Assembly: GCA_024400195.1 (NCBI GenBank)
Contig: JAKSNC010000012.1
Span: 1-49,283, forward strand
DNA from: Bacteroidales bacterium
Lineage (GTDB): Bacteria > Bacteroidota > Bacteroidia > Bacteroidales > F082
Reading direction: 5' to 3'
Length of the DNA: 49,283 nucleotides
In this document: positions 8,872 to 21,630 of the stretch, one piece after another
Position numbering within the stretch: the stretch's first letter is position 1
Layout of the letters: each line of letters begins with the position of its first letter
The notes under the pieces: generated by a model
The model's input: the letters and a program-made list of their open reading frames with translations, nothing else
Database searches by the model: none
What the model was told of the DNA's origin: nothing
Translations under genes and position numbers: made by a program

Positions 8872-11577
8872 ATGAAATGTGTGAACAAGAAGAGACGCTT
8901 CTTTTGGATTTTACTCGCCTTGGCTTTAATCATTGCCGTGGGCGGCATCGGGAAATTTCACGCCAACCCTTTCACCTTTACCCTTAAAACGAATAATCCT
9001 ACGGCTTTAGTCATAGACTCGTCGGGTTCTCCGCGCGCAGTCGCCGACCGATTTGGAAGCGTTCTTCTGATTATGAACGACGACGGCAGACTACAGCGTA
9101 CCGTAAAAATTAACAACGCCGATCATCCGCATGACCGCATAACAATGCTTTACGTCGAAGACGAATTTATTTACGCCAACGTCGTAACGATAGAGAATCA
9201 ACATATTGTTCGCGAACAGATTCGGCTTTATAACAAGTCGGGCAAATGCGTGCGCACTATTACCGATAATATATATACAGACGAAATTGTTTTTGGCAAT
9301 CTAAACCAGTTGTTTATTCGTGACGAAAAGAATCTGTCGTTCGTTCGTATCGAAGATAATGTGCTGAAAACCATTTCTTTAGGCGATGACGGCGCAACGG
9401 TGACTGACAGCGTGTGTTTGAGCGAGCCGATAATCGAAGTCAAGCAGGGGAAAGACTCCGTATTGTATGTGTCAAGTCTATATGGGAAAATGTACGAATA
9501 TGTCTCGGGAAGCGGGTGTGCAAAATCCGTCAGCCTGTCCGATGAAGACTACACGAATATTATGCTTGCTGAGCCTTCCGATGCAATATCTATTGCGTAT
9601 TCTTCCCACTATGCCGTCGTCAATATATTGTTTTGGTTGTCTCTGTTGACTCTTGGAGTGATAATCATATTTTTTGCATACAGGTTTTTTCGTTACAGAT
9701 ACAATAAGACGATAGGTGTTGTCATAGCCGTCGTTTTGTTGGCGGCGGGAATCGTGGCGTTTTACACTTATCACATTTTCCGGCAGACCAAGTCGGAATT
9801 GACCCAGATGATGGTCTATCAGACGGAACTGTTGGCGTATGTGACAGAGCATAATTATATGGGGTTAGTGCAGACTTTGTCGGCCTGTAATACGGACAGC
9901 TGTCTCATGCAGCCGCACGTCGTGGAGCAGTTGACCGATTTGCATACTATACTTGCCAAGTCAAGCCGATATAACGGCAATGAGTACTATGTGGCCGTCG
10001 TGTACAAAGGTGACAGTGTTGTGCGCCAATTGGTTGATAACATGGATAAGGAATCCACGGGCAGACCGGCTTATATGGCCTCAACGGAATGGGATGCGCC
10101 GGACATCGACGGCACGGACACCGTAGTAACGGCCTATAACGAGCAGTTCCGCGGTGCAGCCTGCAATGTCATAGACAAAGCAGGGAAAATCGTCGCCAAA
10201 ATCATATCCGTGCTTCCCGAAAGGCAGTTACGCTTCAACCAAAGGGAAAAAGCCTTCGGGCAGTTTCTTTCTCTTTTGAGCATCCTGATAGGCGTTTATA
10301 CGCTGTTTACCTTCGTGAACGCCATACGCCGCAGCTTCTCCGAATATGCCCGCCGTCGTCGCGAGTCTCTTCCTTACGCCAAGGAGCAGCTGTTCCCGAC
10401 TTTCTATTCTCTGATAGTGTGGTTCAGGGAAGTGGACCGTTCGCTTATGGTGTTTATCATCCCGTATTTTGCGGCAGGCGGCTCTATTGGTGATGTCGCT
10501 TCCGTCACGGCTATTGTCCTGATGGTCTATTCGGTAGGCAGCGTCGTGATGGTGCCCTTTACTAAGATGGCTTATACGCGGTTCGGCATCCGGAATGTGG
10601 GCATCGCCGCATCGTGCGTGAACATGTTTTCTTATGTGCTGATGGTCGTCGCTTTGATTTATACGGATGTTTATCTGTTTTATGTCGCGAAATTCCTTTC
10701 CGGAGCGTCGGCCGGCAATGTCTTGACCGTGGTGTCACATAGTTTAGGCGCGTCAGTCAAAGATAAGTCGGACCGTGCGAAACTGTTTAATGAAAAACAG
10801 ACCGTCGGCAATACCATCAACGTTTTGGCTATCTTGCTCGGCGGCTATATTATCCAATACCTTAATCCCATTGTTCTGTATGTCGTTGCCATCTTGCTGT
10901 CCGCCATGCTCATCGGCGTCAGTGCCGTTACGCTGAGCGGCATTTCTAAGGAAGATAATCAAACGGAAGACGATACTCCTCATTGGCGCGACATGGTGGC
11001 GTCGTTCAAATTCTTCATCCTGCGCGATGGAATCAGCGTCGTCTGGTTTGTGCTGCTCCCGATGGCCTTGTTGTTCGGTTACTTGGACTTCATTTTCCCG
11101 CTGTATGCCTCTGAATGTGGCATTTCTCCGCTTATGCTCTCCAATATTATCGTGATAGGCCTTGCCATGAACTTACTGCTGCGCAAGCCGCTCAACGATT
11201 TTTATTCTTCCATCGGCACAAGGCGGTCTTTGATGGTACAGACTGCCGTTATCAGTGCGGCGCTGCTTATGCTGGCTGTGTCTCCCAATATCATTTGGAT
11301 GATCGTTATATGCCTGATAATCTATGTTTTAAAGATGAATTCCTGTGTCGTTTTATATCAGGTGGAGGTGATTGAACGTAATGGATTCAGGCAGCAGGAC
11401 GTGCAGTCGGACTGTCTGTTGGCCGATCAGATACTGAGGACGGTTCGAATGCCTTTTATCAATATGCTCGTGCAGGCGGGAAGAATCTCGGCATGCGTCT
11501 GGATCGGTGCTATCTGCGCCTTCCTGACGGGCGGATTGGCCGTGTTTGGTAAAGAAAAAAAGAAAAATGAATTATGA
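8872..11577 (+). CDS. Membrane sensor fused to an MFS transporter (901 aa)
   Basis: Three parts can be read. Residues about 11-27 are a membrane anchor, followed by a roughly 220-residue extracytoplasmic domain with repeated beta-strand character (LVIDSSGSPRAVADRFGS, IRLYNKSGKCVRTITD), suggestive of a beta-propeller. Two helices follow (about 248-270 and 281-300). Then comes a second extracytoplasmic region (about 301-462) with helix plus VAVVYKGDSVVRQLVDN and NVIDKAGKIVAKII, typical of a Cache/PAS-like sensor. A further helix (463-484) leads into a 12-helix MFS domain (about 505-895). No kinase, HAMP or phosphatase output domain is present. Ligand-gated transport is inference. Its stop overlaps the start of the aminotransferase by 4 nt, suggesting a linked substrate. 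Confidence 0.75.
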   Translation: MKCVNKKRRFFWILLALALIIAVGGIGKFHANPFTFTLKTNNPTALVIDSSGSPRAVADRFGSVLLIMNDDGRLQRTVKINNADHPHDRITMLYVEDEFIYANVVTIENQHIVREQIRLYNKSGKCVRTITDNIYTDEIVFGNLNQLFIRDEKNLSFVRIEDNVLKTISLGDDGATVTDSVCLSEPIIEVKQGKDSVLYVSSLYGKMYEYVSGSGCAKSVSLSDEDYTNIMLAEPSDAISIAYSSHYAVVNILFWLSLLTLGVIIIFFAYRFFRYRYNKTIGVVIAVVLLAAGIVAFYTYHIFRQTKSELTQMMVYQTELLAYVTEHNYMGLVQTLSACNTDSCLMQPHVVEQLTDLHTILAKSSRYNGNEYYVAVVYKGDSVVRQLVDNMDKESTGRPAYMASTEWDAPDIDGTDTVVTAYNEQFRGAACNVIDKAGKIVAKIISVLPERQLRFNQREKAFGQFLSLLSILIGVYTLFTFVNAIRRSFSEYARRRRESLPYAKEQLFPTFYSLIVWFREVDRSLMVFIIPYFAAGGSIGDVASVTAIVLMVYSVGSVVMVPFTKMAYTRFGIRNVGIAASCVNMFSYVLMVVALIYTDVYLFYVAKFLSGASAGNVLTVVSHSLGASVKDKSDRAKLFNEKQTVGNTINVLAILLGGYIIQYLNPIVLYVVAILLSAMLIGVSAVTLSGISKEDNQTEDDTPHWRDMVASFKFFILRDGISVVWFVLLPMALLFGYLDFIFPLYASECGISPLMLSNIIVIGLAMNLLLRKPLNDFYSSIGTRRSLMVQTAVISAALLMLAVSPNIIWMIVICLIIYVLKMNSCVVLYQVEVIERNGFRQQDVQSDCLLADQILRTVRMPFINMLVQAGRISACVWIGAICAFLTGGLAVFGKEKKKNEL

Positions 11578-12753: not shown

Positions 12754-13683
12754 ATGTCAGGTCGATTTATTTCCTGTATAAAAGAAGCTTCGCCGTCTGC
12801 CTTCCGCACGATATGGTGGCTCGCCAAACTGATGGTCGGCGTCTCGTTTGTGATATTCATCCTGCAATATGTCGGTGTTATCGGATGGCTGTCGCGCTGG
12901 CTGACTCCCATATTCGGCTGTTTCGGACTCCCGGGTGAGGCCTCGCTCGCCTTCGTGACAGGTTATTTCGTCAACTGCTATTCGGCACTCGCCGTCATAA
13001 CTACTCTCGACATCAGCCGCCGCTCCATCACCATCCTCTCGGTGATGATTCTCTGCGCGCATAATATGATTGTCGAGACTTCCGTTCAGCATAAGACGGG
13101 TTCTTCGGTGATGCGAATCGTCTGTATAAGAACACTTTCCGCTTTCTTTTTAGCCTTCATCCTCAACCTGATAATGCCTGAAGACACGTCACGTGTTTCG
13201 GCTTCGGTCGTCAATACTGATGATGTCGGTTTTATGACGCTGTTGTCGGATTGGGCTGTCAAGACTTTGAAAAACATCATCCTGATGGTCGTGTTGGTTT
13301 ATCTTCTGACCGTGTTGCAGAGAATACTTTCGGAGTTCGGTATCATCGCGAAGATTGCCGGAATGCTCAGCCCTGTGATGAGGTTTTTCGGGCTTCCGCC
13401 GAGGACGGCCTTTCTCTGGCTTGTCGCAAACACACTCGGTCTCGCGTACGGCAGTGCCGTGATGATTGACGAGACTGAACGCGGTAATACGACGAAGGAT
13501 GACAACGACCTGTTGAATCATCATATCGGCGTGTCACACAGCAATCTCGAAGATTTGACTCTGTTTACGGCCGCCGGTGGCTATTTCTTCTGGATGCTTC
13601 TGTCGCGATGGTGTATGTCGATGCTTCTCGTGTGGGGCAGAAGGTTGGAAAAGAAAGTTATCACTTGTCTTCCGTCTTCTTGA
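12754..13683 (+). CDS. Gate-domain (nucleoside recognition / SpmA-B-like) membrane protein
   Basis: The protein has 309 residues, many hydrophobic, with two Gate-type halves. The first has VIGWLSRWLTPIFGCFGLPG and GYFVNCYSALAVITTLDIS. The second has ILSEFGIIAKIAGMLSPVMRFFGLPP and GLAYGSAVMIDE. Proteins of this class sit in the inner membrane; their transport role is poorly defined. The gene follows patB by 22 nt and is probably in the same operon. Its last eight codons (KVITCLPSS region) overlap the 3' end of a convergent accessory gene by 23 bp. Its C terminus may thus have been remodelled when the accessory block joined here. Confidence 0.82.
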   Translation: MSGRFISCIKEASPSAFRTIWWLAKLMVGVSFVIFILQYVGVIGWLSRWLTPIFGCFGLPGEASLAFVTGYFVNCYSALAVITTLDISRRSITILSVMILCAHNMIVETSVQHKTGSSVMRIVCIRTLSAFFLAFILNLIMPEDTSRVSASVVNTDDVGFMTLLSDWAVKTLKNIILMVVLVYLLTVLQRILSEFGIIAKIAGMLSPVMRFFGLPPRTAFLWLVANTLGLAYGSAVMIDETERGNTTKDDNDLLNHHIGVSHSNLEDLTLFTAAGGYFFWMLLSRWCMSMLLVWGRRLEKKVITCLPSS

Positions 13684-14656
13684 ACGTCACGCTTTTCGGG
13701 TTATAAAGTTTGACCGTCTTGTCGCCTTTCGTCACCTCCACGCTCGGGCAGTTGTCGCAAGGTTCGCCCATTTCGCCGAGGGCTTCGGCTTGGCCGTCCT
13801 CGAAACCGCGAGCATAACCGGCGGCTTCACCTTCAGCATAGGCTGCGGATTTACCTTTTTCTACTTTTACAGAAAACTTACCCTTTAAAATGTCAGCCAT
13901 ATCATAGCCGGTATAATGTGGTATTTCTATTTCAGCATATAGTACACCTGCCTTGAGAAGGACTGAACTTGCCACAAAGATGTCATGGCTCTCACCTTTT
14001 TCTCCGCCACCGATACCACCTATTGCGTTAACCTCACCGCCATTGATGGTAATATTATATCCGTTTCCTTCTTTTCCTCCACCGATACCACCCATTGCGT
14101 CAACCTCACCGCCATTGATGGTAATATTATATCCGTTTCCTTCATTCCCTCCACCGATGCCGGCAGCAAAACCGTGACATTGTGCCTCAACCACACCGCC
14201 ATTGATGGTGATATTAGAACCTTCTTTTCTGTCCTTGCCACCTATTCCGGCAGAATTTCCACGACCGTGTGTCATCAGCCGACCAGTTTGATTCTTTTGA
14301 CCGTAGATAGTGAGGGAGTTGCCTTCGCCCGATACTTGGATGCCGGGGGTTTCATTTCCATCGGCTGCAGCAAGGAAGCTATTATCGGCAAGGATAAGGT
14401 GAACGTCGCCAGAGCAAGATAGATTGCGGGTTTCTACATCACCGCCCAAAGCGACATACCAGCCGGCATTCAAAGTAGCAGAAGCATTGGTGATTACGGT
14501 AGCTTCTACGCTGCCTTCTTTCCACTCCTTAATACCGCTTTTAGGGTCATCAGGGGTGTTGTACACGGGATAAAGATAAGACACCGTTTGTTTCTCTTGT
14601 GCCCACAGTCCTGCGCTCAGCGTTAGGGCGAGGAAAATTGAAAATAGTTTTTTCAT
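13661..14656 (-). CDS. Secreted beta-helix-like repeat protein with shared C-terminal tail
   Basis: A signal peptide (MKKLFSIFLALTLSAGLWAQ) is followed by a domain that also starts the paralogue at 19744 (TVSYLYPVYNTPDDPKSGI). Next come strand-rich repeats built on ITINGGxVxAxGGIGGG. Two of them are 72-bp DNA repeats nearly identical to each other (about 14037-14180). After an Ala/Gly-rich linker (AAYAEGEAAGYARGFEDG) it ends with ALGEMGEPCDNCPSVEV and VKLYNPKSVTFKK, a tail found in two neighbours. A right-handed beta-helix on the cell surface is inference; I do not recognise a named family. It overlaps the Gate-domain gene at the 3' end. The 36-bp element at 14695 lies in its promoter region. 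Confidence 0.75.
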   Translation of the reverse strand: MKKLFSIFLALTLSAGLWAQEKQTVSYLYPVYNTPDDPKSGIKEWKEGSVEATVITNASATLNAGWYVALGGDVETRNLSCSGDVHLILADNSFLAAADGNETPGIQVSGEGNSLTIYGQKNQTGRLMTHGRGNSAGIGGKDRKEGSNITINGGVVEAQCHGFAAGIGGGNEGNGYNITINGGEVDAMGGIGGGKEGNGYNITINGGEVNAIGGIGGGEKGESHDIFVASSVLLKAGVLYAEIEIPHYTGYDMADILKGKFSVKVEKGKSAAYAEGEAAGYARGFEDGQAEALGEMGEPCDNCPSVEVTKGDKTVKLYNPKSVTFKKTEDK

Positions 14657-14730
14657 TTGCGACTATATATTTCTGTTTTAGCCGCGAAGTTACAACATTT
14701 CCCCATATACGTGAGAAATATCAGCGGAAT
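14492..14730 (-). repeat. Copy A of a 239/240-bp near-identical direct repeat
   Basis: This segment covers the promoter region, signal peptide and first about 50 codons of the gene ending at 13661. It matches 20962-21201 with only about a dozen differences, including one A missing from the run after the ATG (6 here, 7 there). The coding part from about 14492 to 14620 is essentially identical. It indicates recent duplication or gene conversion. Confidence 0.9.
14695..14730 (-). promoter_or_regulatory. 36-bp palindromic promoter-proximal element, copy 1
   Basis: Plus strand runs from ACATTTCCCC to AGCGGAAT and is shared with 16259-16294 and 21166-21201. The core has the symmetry TTTCnCAnnTAnnTGnGAAA (one mismatch here). 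On the minus strand it sits immediately upstream of a TAACTTCG box, 39 nt ahead of the gene starting at 14656. An operator for a dimeric regulator is one reading; a recombination site is another. Confidence 0.6.
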
Positions 14731-14732
14731 AT

Positions 14733-14919
14733 TAGCCATTAGCCATTAGCAATGAACCCTTTAAACCTTTTGACTTTTTGACTTTTTGACCTTTTGACTT
14801 CAGAACATCTGAACATCTGAACTTCTGAACATCTGAACATCTGAACTTCTGAACATCTGAACATCTGAACATCTGAACTTCTGAACATCTGAACTTCTTA
14901 ACCCTTCTAAACCTTTTAA
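14733..14919. repeat. Tandem-repeat tract at the 3' end of the DUF4143 pseudogene
   Basis: The tract includes ATTAGCC heptamers, then four TTTTTGAC-type octamers (about 14766-14798), then exactly twelve octamers GAACATCT/GAACTTCT at 14803-14898 (96 bp). The tract ends at the stop codon of the minus-strand pseudogene. The sequence ATTAGCAATGAACCC downstream of the heptamers recurs at 16322. Confidence 0.9.
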
Positions 14920-16187
14920 CTAATTATCAAGCAGCCATTTCCAGACTGGGATGACCTCTACCGTACCGAAATTATCTTGGAAAGATGTCTCTTCATCAAA
15001 CGTGAAGATGGTTCTGCGCTCGCATTCCACAGCCTTGGGCAGTTTGGCAAGTGCAGTCATTTCGCGCTTGATAGTTTCCATGTCATGTATGGAATAGCAT
15101 ACCTGTATCGCCCATTTTTGTTCGGGAACGTAAAAGTCAACTTCATAACCATTGCTGTTGTAAAAATAGACGGTGTCGTTATCTTTGTCATGTCCAAACA
15201 GACGGAAGAGTTGCAAGGCAACCATATTTTCCAGTAAGGCTGTCTCGCCACCTAACAGGAAAAGGTTCAATACACCGTTATCCACGAAATAGTATTTGCA
15301 GATACTCTCCTTCTCGCTTAACGCCGCCGCCATATTTCGCAAACGAAGTATCAGCCACGCGTCTTCGCAATACCCGACATATCCGGCAATAGTTGGCACG
15401 GTTACTTTTCCGCTAATGGATGAAACAATATTTGCAAGGCGTGTGTATGAAATCGGCTGTCTCACGCTCTCAGCCAACTTCTTGATCATCAGCCGGAGTG
15501 CCACTGTATTGCTGATATTATTACGCGAGGCGATGTCTCCCAAATAGATTTTCTGATAGGTGCTGCTGATATAGCCCCGTTTGTCCTGTTGCCCAATGGA
15601 TTCCGGCATTCCTCCCCATAGCAAGTAGTCGTTGTAGTTCTTAATCATTTTGGCACGTCCCTTGGTAGATAATAGCGCCAGCTCATCAAAGGGAACATCC
15701 AAATAGCCCATCACCTCTTTAAAACTGAACGGGTATATATCCTTCTCCAAAAAACGTCCGCCCAACGTAGTCATAAACTCACTGCTGAGCATCTGTGCAT
15801 TGCTGCCGGTGAGGCATATAGTGTATTTATTATCCGCCATTCTGCGGGCAAATTTCTCCCAGCCTGCTATAATCTGTATTTCATCCAAGAACAGCATCGG
15901 CTTATAATCATACATTTCCGCGTATGCGTCAAGCAACCGGTCGAAGTCTTCATTTACAAAGTTTTCCAATCGGTTATCCTCAAAGTTCAGATACAGAAAC
16001 TCTTCAGGGCGGTGTCCGACGGCCACCAAATGCTGAATGTGCTGATAGAGCGCGTATGACTTGCCCGCACGCCTATGAAAGCATAATTCATATTGTCTGC
16101 TACACTCAATGAGCGTTGAAAGAGCGAGCGTTCAACAATTTCCTGCTGATTTTATAAAATGATTCGTTTAAAAATCTGTTTGTCCAT
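14920..16187 (-). pseudogene. Broken AAA ATPase of the ATP-binding/DUF4143 family
   Basis: The intact part (16029 to 14920) has Walker B MLFLDEIQIIAGWE, sensor LTGSNAQML and a DUF4143 C-terminal half ending in a nuclease-like YEVDFYVPEQKWAIQVCYS. Upstream coding sequence is damaged. From the ATG at 16187 the frame reads MDKQIFKRIIL, then a TAA at 16154-16152 where GAA is likely ancestral, then NQQEIVERSLFQRSLSVADN, NMNYAFIGVR. At about 16063-16073 the frame shifts to RAGKSYALYQHIQ. Restoring a lost 7-bp copy of CGTGCGG would rebuild GVRRAGKS, the Walker A loop. It is therefore non-functional unless translated from the internal start. The 36-bp element and a TATTTTTG box (16256-16249) precede it. 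Confidence 0.85.
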
Positions 16188-16258
16188 TTAATATATCGCT
16201 TAATAAATTTTGGTATATCTATAAAATGCCATTTAATAATTTCGGCTACAAAAATACT

Positions 16259-16294
16259 ACATTTTCCCATATACGTGAGAAATATCAGCGGAAT
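16259..16294 (-). promoter_or_regulatory. 36-bp palindromic promoter-proximal element, copy 2
   Basis: This copy contains the best palindrome, TTTCCCATATACGTGAGAAA (half-sites TTTCnCAnnT). It abuts a minus-strand TATTTTTG box at 16256-16249, upstream of the ATPase pseudogene. Same orientation as the other two copies. Confidence 0.6.
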
Positions 16295-16300
16295 ATTTCC

Positions 16301-16392
16301 ATTAGCCATTAGCCATTAGCCATTAGCAATGAACCCTTTAAACCTTTTGACCTCTCTTTACTCTCTTAACCTTTCAAACCTTTCAAACCCTT
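16301..16392. repeat. Heptamer tract at the 3' end of the intact DUF4143 ATPase gene
   Basis: Four heptamers ATTAGCC (the last ATTAGCA) at 16301-16328 are followed by AATGAACCCTTTAAACC, as at 14750, and then CTTTCAAAC-type repeats running up to the stop codon of the next minus-strand gene. Confidence 0.85.
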
Positions 16393-17685
16393 CTAAGGGC
16401 GCAGGCAGCCGACGGGAACGATGCACACGCCATCCGGACGGCGATAAACGTACTGGCCGACAGCCGTCAGTACCATCTTGAACGATGCACAACCTAATTT
16501 GTCAGTGTCAATCCTGTTCTCCAATTTGTTCAGCGACGCCACGGCTTCATTTATCAACGCCTCGCCGCCTAATTTTATCTCGACCAAACCATATCTCCCG
16601 TTTCTCAGATGAATGACGGCATCGCATTCCAGACCGGTCTTGTCACGATAATGATAAACCCTGCCACCTATCGCTTCCGCATAGACACGCAGGTCGCGCA
16701 CGCAAAGCGTCTCAAAGAGCAGCCCCAATGTGTTGATGTCGTCTATCAAGTCTTCAGGGCCGACACCCAAAGCGGCAGTCGCGATGCTCGGATCCACAAA
16801 ATACCGGGTGTCGGAAGTCCGCAATGCAGTCTTGCTACGCAAATTGGGGCTCCATGCCGCCATGTCTTCAATGACAAATATCTTACGCAGCGCGTTCAGA
16901 TAAGATTGCACCGTGTCTTCTGTCAATGTATCCGTGTCATTCACCTTCACGTCGGCAAGCAGTGTGCCCAATGTAGCTTGCTTTCCTTGATGACGGGCGT
17001 ATGAACGCATGAGGCGTCTTGCCCTTTCTTCATTGCGCGTCACGCCGTCCGCACGTGAGATGTCAGACCTCACAACCGCCTCGAAGTACTCGCGCACAGG
17101 AACCAATTGGGCGTTGGCTGTACGTTTGCTCAGTGTCTGAGGCCAACCGCCACGGCAGATAAGATGAGCTATTCGGGACAAATCCAGACTATTTGTTCCT
17201 TGCAGAGGTTCTGGGTTATTCCGAAACATCTGTTGCAGACTGACGGAGCCATTGGAATCGCCCGACTCCCAAAGGGTCATGGGGCGCATGGTCAGCCACG
17301 CGAAACGACCGGTGCCGGTGTGGGAAATCTTGTCCGTTTGCGGAGGGACTGCCGAGCCTGTGAGAATAAACTGTCCGTCCTCCGCCCGTTGATCCACGGT
17401 GAAACGGACGGCATCCCAAATCTCGGGAATCAACTGCCACTCGTCTATCAGACGGGGCGTGGCACCAGCCAACACTTGATACATATCGGTTTGTGCTAAA
17501 TACAATGTGTTCTGTTTGGTGGCGGGATCGGCCACGTACAGGATACTGCCTGCGCATTGAGCGGCAGTGGTCGTCTTGCCGCAATATTTTGGTCCTTCCA
17601 CCAACACGGCACCCATTGCATCCAATTTTTCCTGCAGTAATTCATCGACAACTCGAGGACGATATTCGTTCATGTTTTTTTGCAC
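16393..17685 (-). CDS. AAA ATPase, ATP-binding/DUF4143 family (intact)
   Basis: This 430-residue protein has Walker A in VEGPKYCGKTTT (residues about 29-40), Walker B in PRLIDEWQLIPEIW, sensor 1 in FILTGSAVPP, and a DUF4143 C-terminal region with LECDAVIHLRNG then LVEIKLGG, a PD-(D/E)XK-like D...EIK pattern. Such ATPases are abundant and variable in gut Bacteroidales; their role is unknown. Translation could also begin at Met5 (17673). It belongs to a different subfamily from the pseudogene next door. A TATCTTTG box lies at 17707-17700, and a 23-bp tandem array is further upstream. The 3' end runs straight into a repeat tract. Confidence 0.88.
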   Translation of the reverse strand: MQKNMNEYRPRVVDELLQEKLDAMGAVLVEGPKYCGKTTTAAQCAGSILYVADPATKQNTLYLAQTDMYQVLAGATPRLIDEWQLIPEIWDAVRFTVDQRAEDGQFILTGSAVPPQTDKISHTGTGRFAWLTMRPMTLWESGDSNGSVSLQQMFRNNPEPLQGTNSLDLSRIAHLICRGGWPQTLSKRTANAQLVPVREYFEAVVRSDISRADGVTRNEERARRLMRSYARHQGKQATLGTLLADVKVNDTDTLTEDTVQSYLNALRKIFVIEDMAAWSPNLRSKTALRTSDTRYFVDPSIATAALGVGPEDLIDDINTLGLLFETLCVRDLRVYAEAIGGRVYHYRDKTGLECDAVIHLRNGRYGLVEIKLGGEALINEAVASLNKLENRIDTDKLGCASFKMVLTAVGQYVYRRPDGVCIVPVGCLRP

Positions 17686-17699
17686 TTTTTTAACGACTG

Positions 17700-17707
17700 C
17701 AAAGATA
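17700..17707 (-). promoter_or_regulatory. TATCTTTG promoter box for the DUF4143 ATPase
   Basis: Reading the minus strand, TATCTTTGCAG lies 14 nt before the ATG at 17685. The 23-bp repeat array starts 44 nt further upstream. Confidence 0.6.
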
Positions 17708-17750
17708 CAATATTATTTTTTATAAATGCAAGAAAATCAGTAAAATAATT

Positions 17751-17865
17751 TTTTTATTTGGCAAGTTGGACTGTTTTTATTTGGCAAGTTGGACTGTTTT
17801 TATTTGGCAAGTTGGACTGTTTCCATTTGGCAAGTTGGACTGTTTTTATTTGGCAAGTTGGACTG
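17751..17865. repeat. Five perfect-length 23-bp tandem repeats
   Basis: Units at 17751, 17774, 17797, 17820 and 17843 each end in TTTGGCAAGTTGGACTG after a T-rich lead. Only unit 4 differs (TTTCC for TTTTT). There are no spacers. It lies between the phosphatase gene's 3' end and the ATPase promoter on the minus strand. Confidence 0.95.
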
Positions 17866-17935
17866 TATGTCAGGAAGATTTTAAGTCAACTTTCGCTCCA
17901 AAAGTTTCACCGGCAGCCTGTCAATCTCGTATAAG

Positions 17936-19219
17936 TCACCTCGCCAGGCTCTCAAATTCAGCAATAGTCTCGTCAAAGCGTTGGATAACATCTTCCATAT
18001 TGTAGAATCCGTCAGCATTTCTTGAAAGGCCGTCAAAATCTATCGGAAGAATCATAGGAGGATTGGATATAGAGATTTCCTGCGTTTCCCTTAATTGAGA
18101 AACGGCTGCGTAAATGAGTTTGACGTCTATAAACTCCGAGTTGCCTTTCTTATATCTTCTGAACACTATCTTAGAACCGATAGGGCTGGAGAACTCAACA
18201 GCATTGGCTGTCTGCGGCAACTTCATGCGGAGGGCGGACGTGATGGACGCGATATTGGAATCGTGGCCGCAGAGGAAGGTAAACTTGCGAGTGGTATCGC
18301 ATATCTCCTCCTTTATCTTTTTGACGAGGGGATTGGATATGAGTATTGCAGTGGCAGGAGTCGTAAATATCACCTCATCGTAAACGGTCTTGACTTTGCC
18401 GATTCGTCTCATATCATCCAAAGAGATGTCTTTTCCGAATGCTTTCCCCGTCTCGTAATACTGGAGGACGACTGCATCGGCGATGCTGTTCACCAGTTTA
18501 TAGTCGCCCGTCATCCCTGGTTCTTCTCCCTTCTCCAGAATGATGGACATCTCTTTTAAAGGAAGATGCTCAAGTTGATTTTCCTCGGCGTATGGAGACT
18601 CCTTGAAACCGATGACATCCTCCATATAGCGAATCTCATCCGAGATTTTTTCTACAGCCGCCCAAATGCCTTTGTAGGGTTCGTCTGCCGTTCCCGCCAC
18701 ACCACCAATCTCATTCATTTCTGCGATTATGCGTCTTTCAAGGTTGTCGTTCATGACTGTGTATGCCGGATGGAAAAGGGGGTCCATACCGTCATCGTCT
18801 TGTGGAAGATGATACACCTGCAAATCTTTCCCAAAGCCCACGAGGAAGTTTTCGGCAGTTCTGATAGTCCTTTGCTTTACGTTGGAATAGATAAGTGTAT
18901 TGTCCGCATTGAGTGATGCGTACATGTCGTGATTCTCCCGGTTGAGATCCTCACGGAACCAATTTCCCATTTTCTGCTCTATTCTTGCTCCACGGGCTGT
19001 GAGATGAGCTGTTCCGACACCCCAATCCACCCAATCGTACGGTGTAACTCGGTCAAGGTCGGAGCCTGGAGCCGAAAGCGGGGAACGGATGTTATGACGT
19101 GAGAAGACGACTTCATCTCTGAGGATGTAGCCTGTGTTGTCCGAATTGTGGTTGTCCTTCCTGCATGAGACGAACAGAAGGGCGATAATGAGAAGATAAC
19201 AGAAATGATAGCGTTTCAT
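17936..19219 (-). CDS. Histidine acid phosphatase (phytase/MINPP-like) lipoprotein
   Basis: The N terminus MKRYHFCYLLIIALLFVSC gives a lipoprotein with Cys19. The branch-2 histidine phosphatase motif RHNIRSP is at 41-47, with the catalytic His in RHxxR. The matching HD motif is in TFLCGHDSNIAS near residue 320. Length (427) fits phytases and inositol-polyphosphate phosphatases of gut Bacteroidales. It probably removes phosphate from phytate or sugar phosphates at the cell surface; the substrate is inference. It is flanked by repeat-rich DNA on both sides and has no operon partner. Confidence 0.88.
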   Translation of the reverse strand: MKRYHFCYLLIIALLFVSCRKDNHNSDNTGYILRDEVVFSRHNIRSPLSAPGSDLDRVTPYDWVDWGVGTAHLTARGARIEQKMGNWFREDLNRENHDMYASLNADNTLIYSNVKQRTIRTAENFLVGFGKDLQVYHLPQDDDGMDPLFHPAYTVMNDNLERRIIAEMNEIGGVAGTADEPYKGIWAAVEKISDEIRYMEDVIGFKESPYAEENQLEHLPLKEMSIILEKGEEPGMTGDYKLVNSIADAVVLQYYETGKAFGKDISLDDMRRIGKVKTVYDEVIFTTPATAILISNPLVKKIKEEICDTTRKFTFLCGHDSNIASITSALRMKLPQTANAVEFSSPIGSKIVFRRYKKGNSEFIDVKLIYAAVSQLRETQEISISNPPMILPIDFDGLSRNADGFYNMEDVIQRFDETIAEFESLAR

Positions 19220-19601
19220 TGTTACTGATAATTAAGAATTTTTAAATATAAGTTATTAACTAAAAATACTCTTGTACTGCAAATTCGAATTGTTGCATGA
19301 AGATTTGTTTGAAAGCATATAGGTTGTTCTGTTCATAAAAAACCGGCATTCATCATGCGAGACATTGAGACGTGCCAACTCGTCTTCACTAAACAGAGTG
19401 ACTGACGGCAGCATGTAACTGTAATATTTCTCGTTTTGTATCCATCGTTTTGAAAAAACGGTGCAAAATTATAAAAAACAATTGAAAAATCGGCTCATTG
19501 TGAATCGAAAAAATAATAAAACAGTGCACTTTCTGAACCGATTCGTTTAGCGAACTGAACATTTCGAGGTGCTCGAGAGTAACTTTTCAACCTCTTGGGC
19601 T
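19220..19601. other. Intergenic stretch with a weak promoter and a possible gene remnant
   Basis: A minus-strand TAATTTTGCAC box is at 19471-19464. Between it and the phosphatase start, the minus strand has a 52-codon open frame (19414-19256, starting MLPSVTLFSEDELARLN). That frame continues open upstream without a start codon, so it looks like the end of a decayed gene. I do not recognise it. The rest is AT-rich with no clear feature. Confidence 0.35.
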
Positions 19602-19743
19602 GTGAGCAGTGAGCAGTGAGCAGTGAGCAGTGAGCAGTGAGCAGGGGACAGGGGACAGGGGACAGGGAAACTGCTAAGCCTTGAACCCTCAACCCTCAAC
19701 CCTCAACCCTAAACCCTAAACCCTAAACCCTAAACCCTAAACA
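19602..19743. repeat. Heptamer tract at the 3' end of the second beta-helix gene
   Basis: There are six GTGAGCA units (19602-19643), three GGGGACA (19644-19664), then after a 19-nt gap three AACCCTC (19684-19704) and five AACCCTA (19705-19739). All have a 7-bp period. The tract touches the stop codon at 19744. Confidence 0.95.
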
Positions 19744-21054
19744 CTATTCCTTCTTGAACGTCACGCTCTCCGGGTTATAAAGTTTAACCGTCTTTGTGCC
19801 TTTCGTAACTTCCACGCTCGGGCAGTCGTCGCAGGGTTCACCCATTTCGCCGAGGGCTTCGGCTTTGCCGTCGTAATACGCCCCTTGGGCGGAAGCAATA
19901 TTGGAGAGGGCTTGCCCCTTGATGGCATTCACTTCTGCAACGGAAGTAGCGGCATTGATACTCGCAATGGCAATGGTAGCGATGCCTTTTATATTGTCGT
20001 TGTCGATCTCTTCCAGCTTTGCATTAATGGCTGCAATAGCATAGACTTTTTCGGTTTCAAGTGAGGGAGTGATTGTTACATAGCGTTGGCCTTTTAATTT
20101 ACCGGCCAGGTCTTCGGAACCGTCATTCTCAATCATTGTTGAAGGAGGATTATTGTTATCTGCTTTTACTTCATGAGTTGAAGCCACTTTGATGTTAGTA
20201 GAAGTAAGATTACCACCATTGCCGCAACCAATACCATCACTATTTCTTTTATGTTCATCAACCCAACATCCGTTTGCTATAACAATACCGCCATTGATAG
20301 TGATGTCATAGCCCCTGCGACCCTCGCCACCACCAATTCCGGCACCGGCACAATCGCTGTCACCTTTTCCGATTGCCGTAACCGTACCGCCATTGATGGT
20401 GATGCCAAAACCTTCAGCATTCCATCCGCCACCAATACCAGCACCACGTGTTCCACCATAAGCTGTAACCGTGCCACCATTGATGGTGATATTGGAGCCG
20501 CTACCTAAATATCCGCCACCTATACCGGCACCTCGATAAGCACCAGTTGCTGTAACTATGCCACCATTGATGGTAATATCAGAGCCATTTTTACCATTAC
20601 CACCACCAATTCCGGCAGCGCCGTAATCGTTTAAAGAATTTCCGGTTGCCTCGATTATACCACCATTGATAGTGATCTTACCATTTTCTTTACCACCAAT
20701 ACCACCAATACCGGCATTATCACCTCCTGTTCCTTTTGCAATCAGTTGACCGGATTGAGCTGCTTGACCATAGACAGTGAGACTTCCCTGACCTTTTACC
20801 ACCTGCAAACCGGGACCTGTACCAGAACCCTCTGCGTTTGTTGTGAGTTTGGCACCATCGGCAAGGATAAGGTGAACGTCGCCCGAGCAAGTCATACTGC
20901 GCGTTTTTACATCATTGCCCAAAACGACATACCAGCCGGCTTTTAGTAAGACAGTGCTTGCGATTACGGTAGCTTCTACGCTGCCTTCTTTCCACTCCTT
21001 AATACCGCTTTTAGGGTCATCAGGGGTGTTGTACACGGGATAAAGATAAGACAC
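19744..21054 (-). CDS. Beta-helix-like repeat protein, signal peptide out of frame
   Basis: It is a paralogue of the 13661 gene. The readable frame starts at MSYLYPVYNTPDD, and five ITINGGxVxAxG repeats ending in AGIGGG follow. Then comes a region with YAIAAINAKLEEIDNDN and INAATSVAEVNAIKGQALS, which is shared with the 21244 gene. The tail ALGEMGEPCDDCPSVEV and VKLYNPESVTFKK closes it. The expected signal peptide is encoded just upstream (21127-21055) but is one base out of frame, because the run after ATG has seven A instead of six. As written, the product would lack a signal peptide or not be made. This is a phase-variation candidate, a pseudogene or a sequence error. Confidence 0.72.
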   Translation of the reverse strand: MSYLYPVYNTPDDPKSGIKEWKEGSVEATVIASTVLLKAGWYVVLGNDVKTRSMTCSGDVHLILADGAKLTTNAEGSGTGPGLQVVKGQGSLTVYGQAAQSGQLIAKGTGGDNAGIGGIGGKENGKITINGGIIEATGNSLNDYGAAGIGGGNGKNGSDITINGGIVTATGAYRGAGIGGGYLGSGSNITINGGTVTAYGGTRGAGIGGGWNAEGFGITINGGTVTAIGKGDSDCAGAGIGGGEGRRGYDITINGGIVIANGCWVDEHKRNSDGIGCGNGGNLTSTNIKVASTHEVKADNNNPPSTMIENDGSEDLAGKLKGQRYVTITPSLETEKVYAIAAINAKLEEIDNDNIKGIATIAIASINAATSVAEVNAIKGQALSNIASAQGAYYDGKAEALGEMGEPCDDCPSVEVTKGTKTVKLYNPESVTFKKE

Positions 21055-21127
21055 CGTTTGTTTCTCTTGTGCCCACAGTCCTGCGCTCAGCGTCAGGGCG
21101 AGGAAGATTGAAAATAGTTTTTTTCAT
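21055..21127 (-). other. Frameshifted signal-peptide coding segment with a 7-A run
   Basis: The ATG at 21127-21125 is followed by seven A (21124-21118) and then sequence almost identical to the paralogue's signal peptide. With six A it would read MKKLFSI-like and join MSYLYP in frame; with seven it leaves frame after three codons. Confidence 0.8.
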
Positions 21128-21165
21128 TTGCGAATATATATTTCTGTTTTGGCCGCAAAAATACA

Positions 21166-21201
21166 ACATTTTTCCATATACGTGAGAAATATCAGCGGAA
21201 T
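21166..21201 (-). promoter_or_regulatory. 36-bp palindromic promoter-proximal element, copy 3
   Basis: CCATATACGTGAGAAATATC and the following AGCGGAAT are identical to the other copies; one base of the left half-site differs. On the minus strand it sits just upstream of a TATTTTTG box (21163-21156) ahead of the ATG at 21127. Confidence 0.6.
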
Positions 21202-21218
21202 GTTTCCGTTTTCCGTGA

Positions 21219-21239
21219 GTCTTTAGTCTTTAGTCTTTA
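21219..21239. repeat. Three GTCTTTA heptamers at the 3' end of the 21244 gene
   Basis: Units at 21219, 21226 and 21233 run up to 4 bp before the stop codon of the next minus-strand gene, the same placement as the other tracts. Confidence 0.85.
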
Positions 21240-21243
21240 GTCT

Positions 21244-21630
21244 CTACTCCTTCTTGAACTTCACGCTCTCCGGGTTATAAAGTTTAACCGTCTTCGTGCC
21301 TTTAGTCACCTCCACGCTCGGGCAGTCCTCGCAAGGTTCGCCCATTTCGCCGAGGGCGGAATTATAAACCACCATTGCTGAAGCGATGGCAGCGAGGGCC
21401 TGTTCTTTAATGGCGTTTATCGTCTCTACAGAGGTGGCGGCGTTGATGTCGGCGGTCAGCTTGGCACAGATGCCGTTTTGTCCGCCATTGACCTGCGCGG
21501 CGAACCATTGCAGGTCGGCGTAGTTGGTTAACAGGTAAGGGTTGGCTTGTGATCCGTCGCCCGTCGGCTGCTGGGCGTTGAGCATGATGCAGCACAGCAT
21601 GGCTGCGAGGATGAGGAATGTCTTCTTCAT
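21244..21630 (-). CDS. Short secreted protein with the shared C-terminal tail
   Basis: The 128-residue product has a signal peptide (MKKTFLILAAMLCCIMLNAQ) and a short N-terminal region, GDGSQANPYLLTNYADLQWF. That region resembles the start of many large Bacteroidales surface proteins. Next comes INAATSVETINAIKEQALA, like the 19744 product, and then directly the tail ALGEMGEPCEDCPSVEV with VKLYNPESVKFKK. It has no beta-helix repeats. It looks like an internally deleted member of the family, but the frame is intact and it may be a real small protein. Confidence 0.7.
   Translation of the reverse strand: MKKTFLILAAMLCCIMLNAQQPTGDGSQANPYLLTNYADLQWFAAQVNGGQNGICAKLTADINAATSVETINAIKEQALAAIASAMVVYNSALGEMGEPCEDCPSVEVTKGTKTVKLYNPESVKFKKE

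Follow-up and report, generated by a model that had tools for sequence, protein, structure and literature searches.

A promoter-like module repeated before different accessory genes in a Bacteroidales genome

Introduction

Putative mobile promoters, and with them the notion of 'promoter propagation', were reportedly described by Matus-Garcia et al. in 2012. A neighbouring phenomenon, horizontal regulatory transfer or intergenic switching, is presented in passages of PMC5890482, which cite Oren 2014 for it. Arrays of TAACTGA and other heptamers are described in part of PMC4679880 from Beggiatoaceae, cyanobacteria and some Bacteroidetes. As for the promoter consensus of this phylum, sections of PMC7366714 report that Flavobacterium johnsoniae yielded no identifiable -33 motif. 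The present analysis deals with a short sequence repeated three times within a 49,283-nucleotide contig of a Bacteroidales bacterium (JAKSNC010000012.1, assembly GCA_024400195.1), the whole of which is called the window hereafter. Mobile promoters and regulatory transfer are already known as a kind, and their occurrence in this lineage is new; the module itself was not recognised in the open-access literature on heptamers, mobile promoters, promoter consensus, Limimorpha, DUF4143 and regulatory transfer. The repeat looks like a travelling 'on-switch', carried by some uncultured gut bacteria ahead of many different surface-protein and ATPase genes, and not like a palindromic repressor site. The simplest account is that of a propagating promoter module, and the full proposal, in which it is copied before varied accessory genes that are exchanged downstream of it by recombination, is given a probability of about 0.7 from the sequence comparisons described below.

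The repeat and its conserved unit

The 20-mer CCATATACGTGAGAAATATC is found exactly at 14703-14722, 16267-16286 and 21174-21193, always on the plus strand, and together with the adjoining AGCGGAAT it forms a run of 28 bp that is identical in all three copies. No match to the 20-mer with up to three mismatches appeared in 100 dinucleotide shuffles of the sequence, which bears out the three copies in one orientation that a first-pass annotation had proposed from the letters of the window. Such a threefold repetition is far beyond chance. On the minus strand, every copy is followed by a -7-type box and then by a gene. The three boxes named by this annotation as TAnnTTTG-type were all confirmed as sequences (Table 1), but that of copy 1, TAACTTCG, does not fit the consensus; the counterpart of copy 1 in Candidatus (Ca.) Limimorpha caballi (Q64b) has TATCTTTG at this position. 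The downstream genes had been correctly assigned, to a beta-helix protein (PF18889), an AAA_14/DUF4143 ATPase and a beta-helix protein for copies 1, 2 and 3, respectively. Copies 1 and 3 have a near-identical start of the beta-helix gene in common (162 nt at 99%) and thus partly reflect a duplicated gene, unlike copy 2. Copies 1 and 2, the latter leading into the ATPase gene, are themselves identical over 44 nt on the upstream side. Copy 1 is thus copy 2-like upstream and copy 3-like downstream.

Ungapped alignment of relatives indicated that the real conserved unit is about 55 bp long, in gene sense, the 28-bp repeat being its core. This unit was defined from the window copies, from two relatives with three mismatches and from one copy of another genome (G024). 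The own genome (G000) comprises 1.84 Mb in 54 contigs, the window being contig C4; the exact 20-mer occurs there in the window only, and the two relatives lie on contigs C13 and C16. Sequence-only models were then used, R1 followed by R2, which was built from 21 copies. The search of the own and related genomes, which the first-pass annotation had called for, yielded eight strong copies on three of the 54 contigs of the own genome, five of them outside the window (three on C13, two on C16), the next match having E=4e-5. Across the genus, 28 strong copies were found in 6 of 99 genomes (8, 6, 4, 6, 3 and 1 per genome), and a gap from 6.4e-10 to 4.4e-7 separates them from weaker, generic-looking matches; from 4.4e-7 on, the matches that were inspected look like ordinary promoters. 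Six of 173 genomes were positive at the family level, every one within this genus, and in an evenly drawn sample of 393 genomes from the order the own genome alone was positive. As strict filters were applied at these three levels, with at most 57, 33 and 14 candidates per genome scored, respectively, some weak copies may have escaped detection. Weak model matches were not accepted as further copies, since many span just the generic 3' half of the promoter.

A degenerate-motif scan of named species genomes gave 86 stretches, 80 of which were made into loci. TAnnTTTG follows within 54 bases in five of these 80 (seven matches: L107, L120, L128, and two each in L156 and L158), all from Bacteroidales assemblies, namely Horse_feces139, Ca. 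Limimorpha caballi and Horse_feces136. The match positions in the Ca. Limimorpha caballi assembly G084 are the same as in G088, a genome of the same genus as the window. Scanning the window against Rfam gave no RNA family at gathering scores. An origin from a phage or plasmid was rejected, a stretch of 101 bases having no match in plasmid or phage records, and no viral contig carried GAAAYATTYYGYYGRTWTTTC with TAYYTTTG 15-35 bases on.

Promoter-like architecture

Read toward the gene, the module consists of GGAAATATTYYGCTGATWTTTC, a spacer of 21-24 bp and TAnnTTTG, usually followed by C. The spacer holds ACGTATATG or variants of it, as well as an A-tract; the best-kept parts are GGAAATATTTYGYTGATTTTTC, the A-tract and the -7 box. 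Twenty-seven copies were tabulated, the 28th (in G105) being excluded and the weak match R1b left out of the tabulations and of the dyad test discussed below. The -7 box conforms to TAnnTTTG, as in sigma-ABfr promoters, in 26 of the 27 copies, c1 being the exception. At the place expected for the -33 TTTG of these promoters stands TTTC, which closes a conserved 22-bp motif and is present in all but one of the tabulated copies (26/27; P49 has TTTG). The distance from TTTC to the box is 21-24 bp in the 23 copies measured, and the G105 copy has both elements. More generally, of 231 open reading frames (ORFs), 84 have TAnnTTTGC in the 150 bp before them, versus 31 for a reverse-strand control, the 231 including ORFs that start less than 230 bases from a fragment end and were not scanned. 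To judge from these counts, TAnnTTTGC is a predicted promoter signature in these genomes.

The limits of the module were examined through mean pairwise identity in an ungapped alignment, with a single representative per downstream family (14 in all). The 26 bp ending with TTTC have an identity of 0.78 and the -7 box one of 0.85; the value drops to 0.55 over the 6 bases that follow and to 0.32 from +6 to +59. On the upstream side it is 0.58 in 7-bp arrays and 0.31 far upstream. Similarity ends at the promoter limits, as in mobile promoters, sharply downstream and fading upstream through the arrays.

The genes behind the module belong to families that are unlike one another in DNA. The 14 downstream DNA families were defined among 23 copies from four genomes, again without R1b. 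As judged from Pfam and by eye, six are DUF4143 ATPase groups, related as proteins; four are surface or secreted groups (one without Pfam match), among whose products are beta-helix and BspA-type proteins; the others are one Fic family, one lipoprotein-like family without Pfam match and two unassigned families. Like promoter DNA thus stands before unlike genes, and within the own genome before beta-helix, BspA, Fic and ATPase genes. In 19 of the 27 copies, the ATG 24-84 nt past the box opens an ORF of 120 aa or more. As to the eight remaining copies, the gene that follows is broken or a remnant for c2, c3 and C13b, a contig end is no more than about 100 bases away for R65b and P49, no long ORF is nearby for P21 and U11b, and a 178-aa ORF is reached only at 314 nt for U55.

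Junctions between genomes

Seven three-way comparisons, chosen by hand, were used to locate the points at which related genomes diverge. Copy C13b of the own genome and R65a of Horse_feces139 are identical from the end of the preceding surface gene through TTTTGCAG, except for one substitution and one 21-bp (three-unit) gap in the array; past TTTTGCAG, different ATPase genes follow. Copies c2 and R1a have the same preceding ATPase (99% over 495 nt), unlike arrays and similar modules, which lead into an ATPase in c2 and into a 1482-aa beta-helix protein in R1a. C13c and Q15b have in common a stretch of 120 nt on the upstream side (92%) and the last two thirds (3') of the module, past which the sequences diverge. 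The downstream side is common to Q60 and R65a, and to C13c and Q15a, while c2 and Q64a have both flanking genes and the module in common with differing arrays. As the junction pairs share these parts in different combinations, promoter, array and gene seem to be exchanged separately.

The switch was placed at -4 to +3 for R65a and, twice, for C13b, which may represent one and the same event, at -2 to 0 for R1a and at -12 to +1 for C13c. That of c1 lies at -53/-52, the upstream edge of the module, and that of Q15a could be narrowed only to -127 to +13. In addition, the gene start of R1a resembles that at window position 21630, with 95% identity in a stretch of 149 nt that reaches roughly to the -7 box, and the sequences before it are unlike. 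The combination typical of regulatory transfer, a like gene start with an unrelated upstream region, is thus found for R1a and window 21630, as regards gene starts only.

The proposed mechanism and its weak points

TAnnTTTG would be the -7 box of the Bacteroidota housekeeping (sigma-ABfr-type) machinery, and the module a promoter of the vegetative type to which a 22-bp motif is added upstream. Transcription by RNA polymerase would begin directly past TTTGCAG and cover the gene that begins 24-84 nt on. The module would have been copied before accessory genes (surface proteins, DUF4143 ATPases, Fic) that stand in clusters in a few Ca. Limimorpha species. Genes on its downstream side would be swapped by homologous or microhomology-driven recombination at or near the -7/start-site sequence common to promoters. 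The 22-bp motif may bring these genes under co-control, and the module perhaps marks a regulon.

Several points weigh against the proposal of a propagating promoter. The promoter is a prediction from sequence, and its upstream motif may instead serve as an operator or as a signal for recombination. From TTTC to the box, the spacer is less well kept (columns from 0.24 to 1.00, ungapped). Six of the 14 families being DUF4143 paralogues, gene duplication may account for some of the promoter similarity. The exchange events are few, and the triples were hand-picked. Sites on the wrong side of the switch (upstream-like to the right/downstream-like to the left) number 0/6 for R65a, 0/31 and 0/4 for C13b with its two comparators, 0/15 for R1a, 2/14 for C13c, 2/12 for c1 and 22/0 for Q15a. 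BLAST similarity between the R1a gene and window 21630 extends beyond the -7 G, by about 12 nt in the upstream direction. Lastly, the assemblies are drafts in which many copies lie close to contig ends. Several are within about 800 bases of one (G024 C11, C49 and C50, G085 C65 and G105 C224), as expected if the assembly is broken by repeats or structural variants.

Alternative explanations

A possible alternative, given rather less than even odds, is an operator: a hypothetical dedicated regulator would bind the 22-bp motif or the whole module and switch the accessory clusters together. The conservation of GGAAATATTTYGYTGATTTTTC across copies is consistent with it, 67 other promoter-like sites sampled having almost no conservation that far upstream, and so is the limited set of accessory genes that lies behind the module. 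The dyad on which the first-pass annotation had founded a possible operator for a dimeric regulator, TTTC-n-CA-nn-TA-nn-TG-n-GAAA, does not fare well. It scores 6/7, 7/7 and 6/7 in copies 1, 2 and 3, but among 25 distinct 46-mers compared with 500 column shuffles and six slid registers, it pairs at 0.72 against a shuffle mean of 0.722, a value of 0.72 being reached by 327 of the 500 shuffles. Only 3 of the 25 sequences reach 7/7, variants lose the CA/TG arms, and the sole change on both sides is found in one sequence, at the central TA. In its favour, the pairing exceeds all six slid registers (0.15-0.54), but this is to be expected anyway of a dyad taken from these very sequences. A second dyad, GAAATAT/ATATTTC, is a doubtful candidate at best: it pairs at 0.75, above all slid registers (0.50 or less) but close to its shuffle mean of 0.731 (53/500 shuffles reach 0.75). 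The palindrome of the first-pass annotation was rejected as the conserved unit, for lack of covariation and with pairing at the shuffle mean.

It is unlikely that the module is a site-specific recombination or cassette-joining site, in which each unit would be gene, array and module with strand exchange at TTTGC^AG. The two narrow switch intervals and the wider one of C13c do overlap at the same few bases, and the module stays with the upstream gene in C13b/R65a and C13c/Q15b. However, ordinary promoters have the -7 box too, and short homology there is sufficient to explain the same joints; c1 is joined at the opposite edge of the module, and no recombinase was seen among 20 Pfam-scanned proteins, the clusters not being fully searched. 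The earlier suggestion of a joining site was thus half right: the resolved switches fall at module edges, three at the -7 box (R65a and C13b counted once) and that of c1 at the upstream edge, but none at the palindrome centre, and ordinary recombination would give the same edge switches. A more elaborate variant is also improbable: accessory genes would be units ending in array and promoter, each incoming gene being installed at the -7/start-site edge of the previous module, hence under the shared promoter, possibly with the aid of DUF4143 ATPases. Least probable is a passive by-product, in which a beta-helix or ATPase gene was duplicated and the repeat is no more than its upstream end, as the gene start common to c1 and c3 and the six families of DUF4143 paralogues could suggest. 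No DNA similarity was detected past the module in c2 versus c1/c3 and in C16a (Fic), C16b (BspA) and Q15b versus the rest. Duplication does not by itself explain copy 2, and as the sole cause it is refuted.

From the initial picture, a promoter-like site before different genes, at which the gene has changed in relatives, has been retained, and the dyad operator has found no support. Under the propagating promoter proposal, the comparisons would provide a limited number of junctions from promoter swaps in Bacteroidales, and the position of two of these is known to within a few bases. They suggest how newly gained surface and ATPase genes come under one common promoter, with a simple prediction, namely joints at the -7 box.

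Tandem arrays and neighbouring genes

Table 1. Position of the module copies and of the features next to them (window coordinates unless a contig is given)
Feature	Position	Strand	Remarks
Promoter module copy c1	14682..14736	-	ahead of beta-helix gene 13661-14656; its -7 box, TAACTTCG, departs from the consensus
Promoter module copy c2	16246..16300	-	upstream of frame-broken AAA_14/DUF4143 ATPase; -7 box TATTTTTG
Promoter module copy c3	21153..21207	-	upstream of beta-helix gene 19744-21054; -7 box TATTTTTG
Weak, module-like promoter of ATPase 16393-17685	17697..17750	-	model R2, E=4e-5
Strong module copies in the own genome	C4 14682, 16246, 21153; C13 16075, 17896, 18226; C16 17138, 21076		sequence model
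7-bp tandem array (ATTAGCC)	14731..14750		upstream side of c1
7-bp tandem array (CCATTAG)	16299..16327		upstream side of c2
7-bp tandem array (AGTCTTT)	21218..21243		upstream side of c3
Beta-helix surface-type protein	13661..14656	-	tail ...VKLYNPKSVTFKK
AAA_14/DUF4143 ATPase, 5' end broken	14920..16029	-	after c2
Beta-helix surface-type protein	19744..21054	-	frame from ATG after c3 ends after 35 codons

The intergenic regions of the cluster are rich in 7- and 8-bp tandem arrays (14731-14902, 16299-16327, 19602-19746 and 21218-21243). Arrays of the GACTAA type occur in 27 of the 99 genus genomes, 21 of which are without a strong module copy, and some stand as inverted pairs between genes. The 7-bp arrays were not retained as part of the module since they are separable from it (27/99 genomes with arrays versus 6/99 with strong module copies). 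A role as terminator of the preceding gene was also discarded: strong hairpins were obtained in two of the four stretches folded (z -4.8 and -4.6), and not in the two others, copy 2 included (z 0.6 and 1.3).

Some of the genes behind the module are damaged. The ATPase gene after copy 2 (14920-16300) is broken near its 5' end, and an intact relative lies behind a module copy in Ca. Limimorpha caballi (Q64a). The beta-helix gene after copy 3 loses its frame soon past the ATG (21054-21130), which could reflect phase variation, decay or an assembly error. Behind C13b (L069, about 10003-10106), there is an ATPase remnant made of a few codons from the start and the final 24, the relatives being full-length. 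Three surface-protein genes have a 3' end of 123 nt in common (13676-13798, 19750-19872 and 21250-21372; 82-90% to the first), coding for ...KTVKLYNPxSVxFKK. Their remainder differs in length and content, and they are perhaps a mosaic family.

DUF4143 matches number 20 in G000, 35 in G024, 39 in G088, and 34 in each of G102 and G103. An R2 match at E<=1 was seen by eye just upstream of 8 of the 17 DUF4143 genes listed for G000 (2 strong, 6 weak; 3 more genes are unlisted), which paralogy could produce. A tandem array with units of exactly 23 bp stands just upstream of the promoter of 6 of 16 DUF4143 genes examined in the own genome (window 17751-17866; L294-L298). The units differ from gene to gene, with a common theme by eye of about AAAAnnnrGCCAAnTT, and the unit of the window, at up to three mismatches, was found nowhere in the own genome outside its own array. 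Any array within 350 bp was counted for 11/16 DUF4143 genes, versus 34/198 other ORFs without P-loop and 10/16 with P-loop. A second DUF4143 set, some genes of which overlap the first, gave 17/30 loci from five genomes. A broken gene (L304) was left out of these counts. The 23-bp array possibly serves self-recognition or is autoregulatory.

Comparison with known systems

The module resembles putative mobile promoters in that homologous promoter sequence stands before non-homologous genes within one genome. It differs from them in being clustered with accessory genes, with 7-bp arrays alongside and between-species junctions at about the -7 box. Similar gene starts with different upstream regions between genomes, as for R1a and window 21630, recall horizontal regulatory transfer as presented in the passages of PMC5890482, whereas in C13b/R65a and C13c/Q15b it is the downstream gene that changes, the promoter being kept next to the gene before it. 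With the sigma-ABfr promoters, as outlined in the sections of PMC7366714 used here, the module has TAnnTTTG at -7 in common; its -33 element is TTTC and not TTTG, and the 22-bp upstream motif is extra. The intergenic 7-bp direct repeats upstream of genes are reminiscent of the heptamer arrays in the part of PMC4679880 cited above, but their units differ, and they lie upstream of the promoter instead of beside the start codon. Tandem repeats in Bacteroidales intergenic DNA are also a feature of BrickBuilt, a miniature inverted-repeat transposable element (MITE) of Porphyromonas gingivalis. According to the excerpts of PMC4596501 consulted, it has a 23-nt unit of another sequence within a MITE bounded by terminal inverted repeats, and is thus a different element from the present module.

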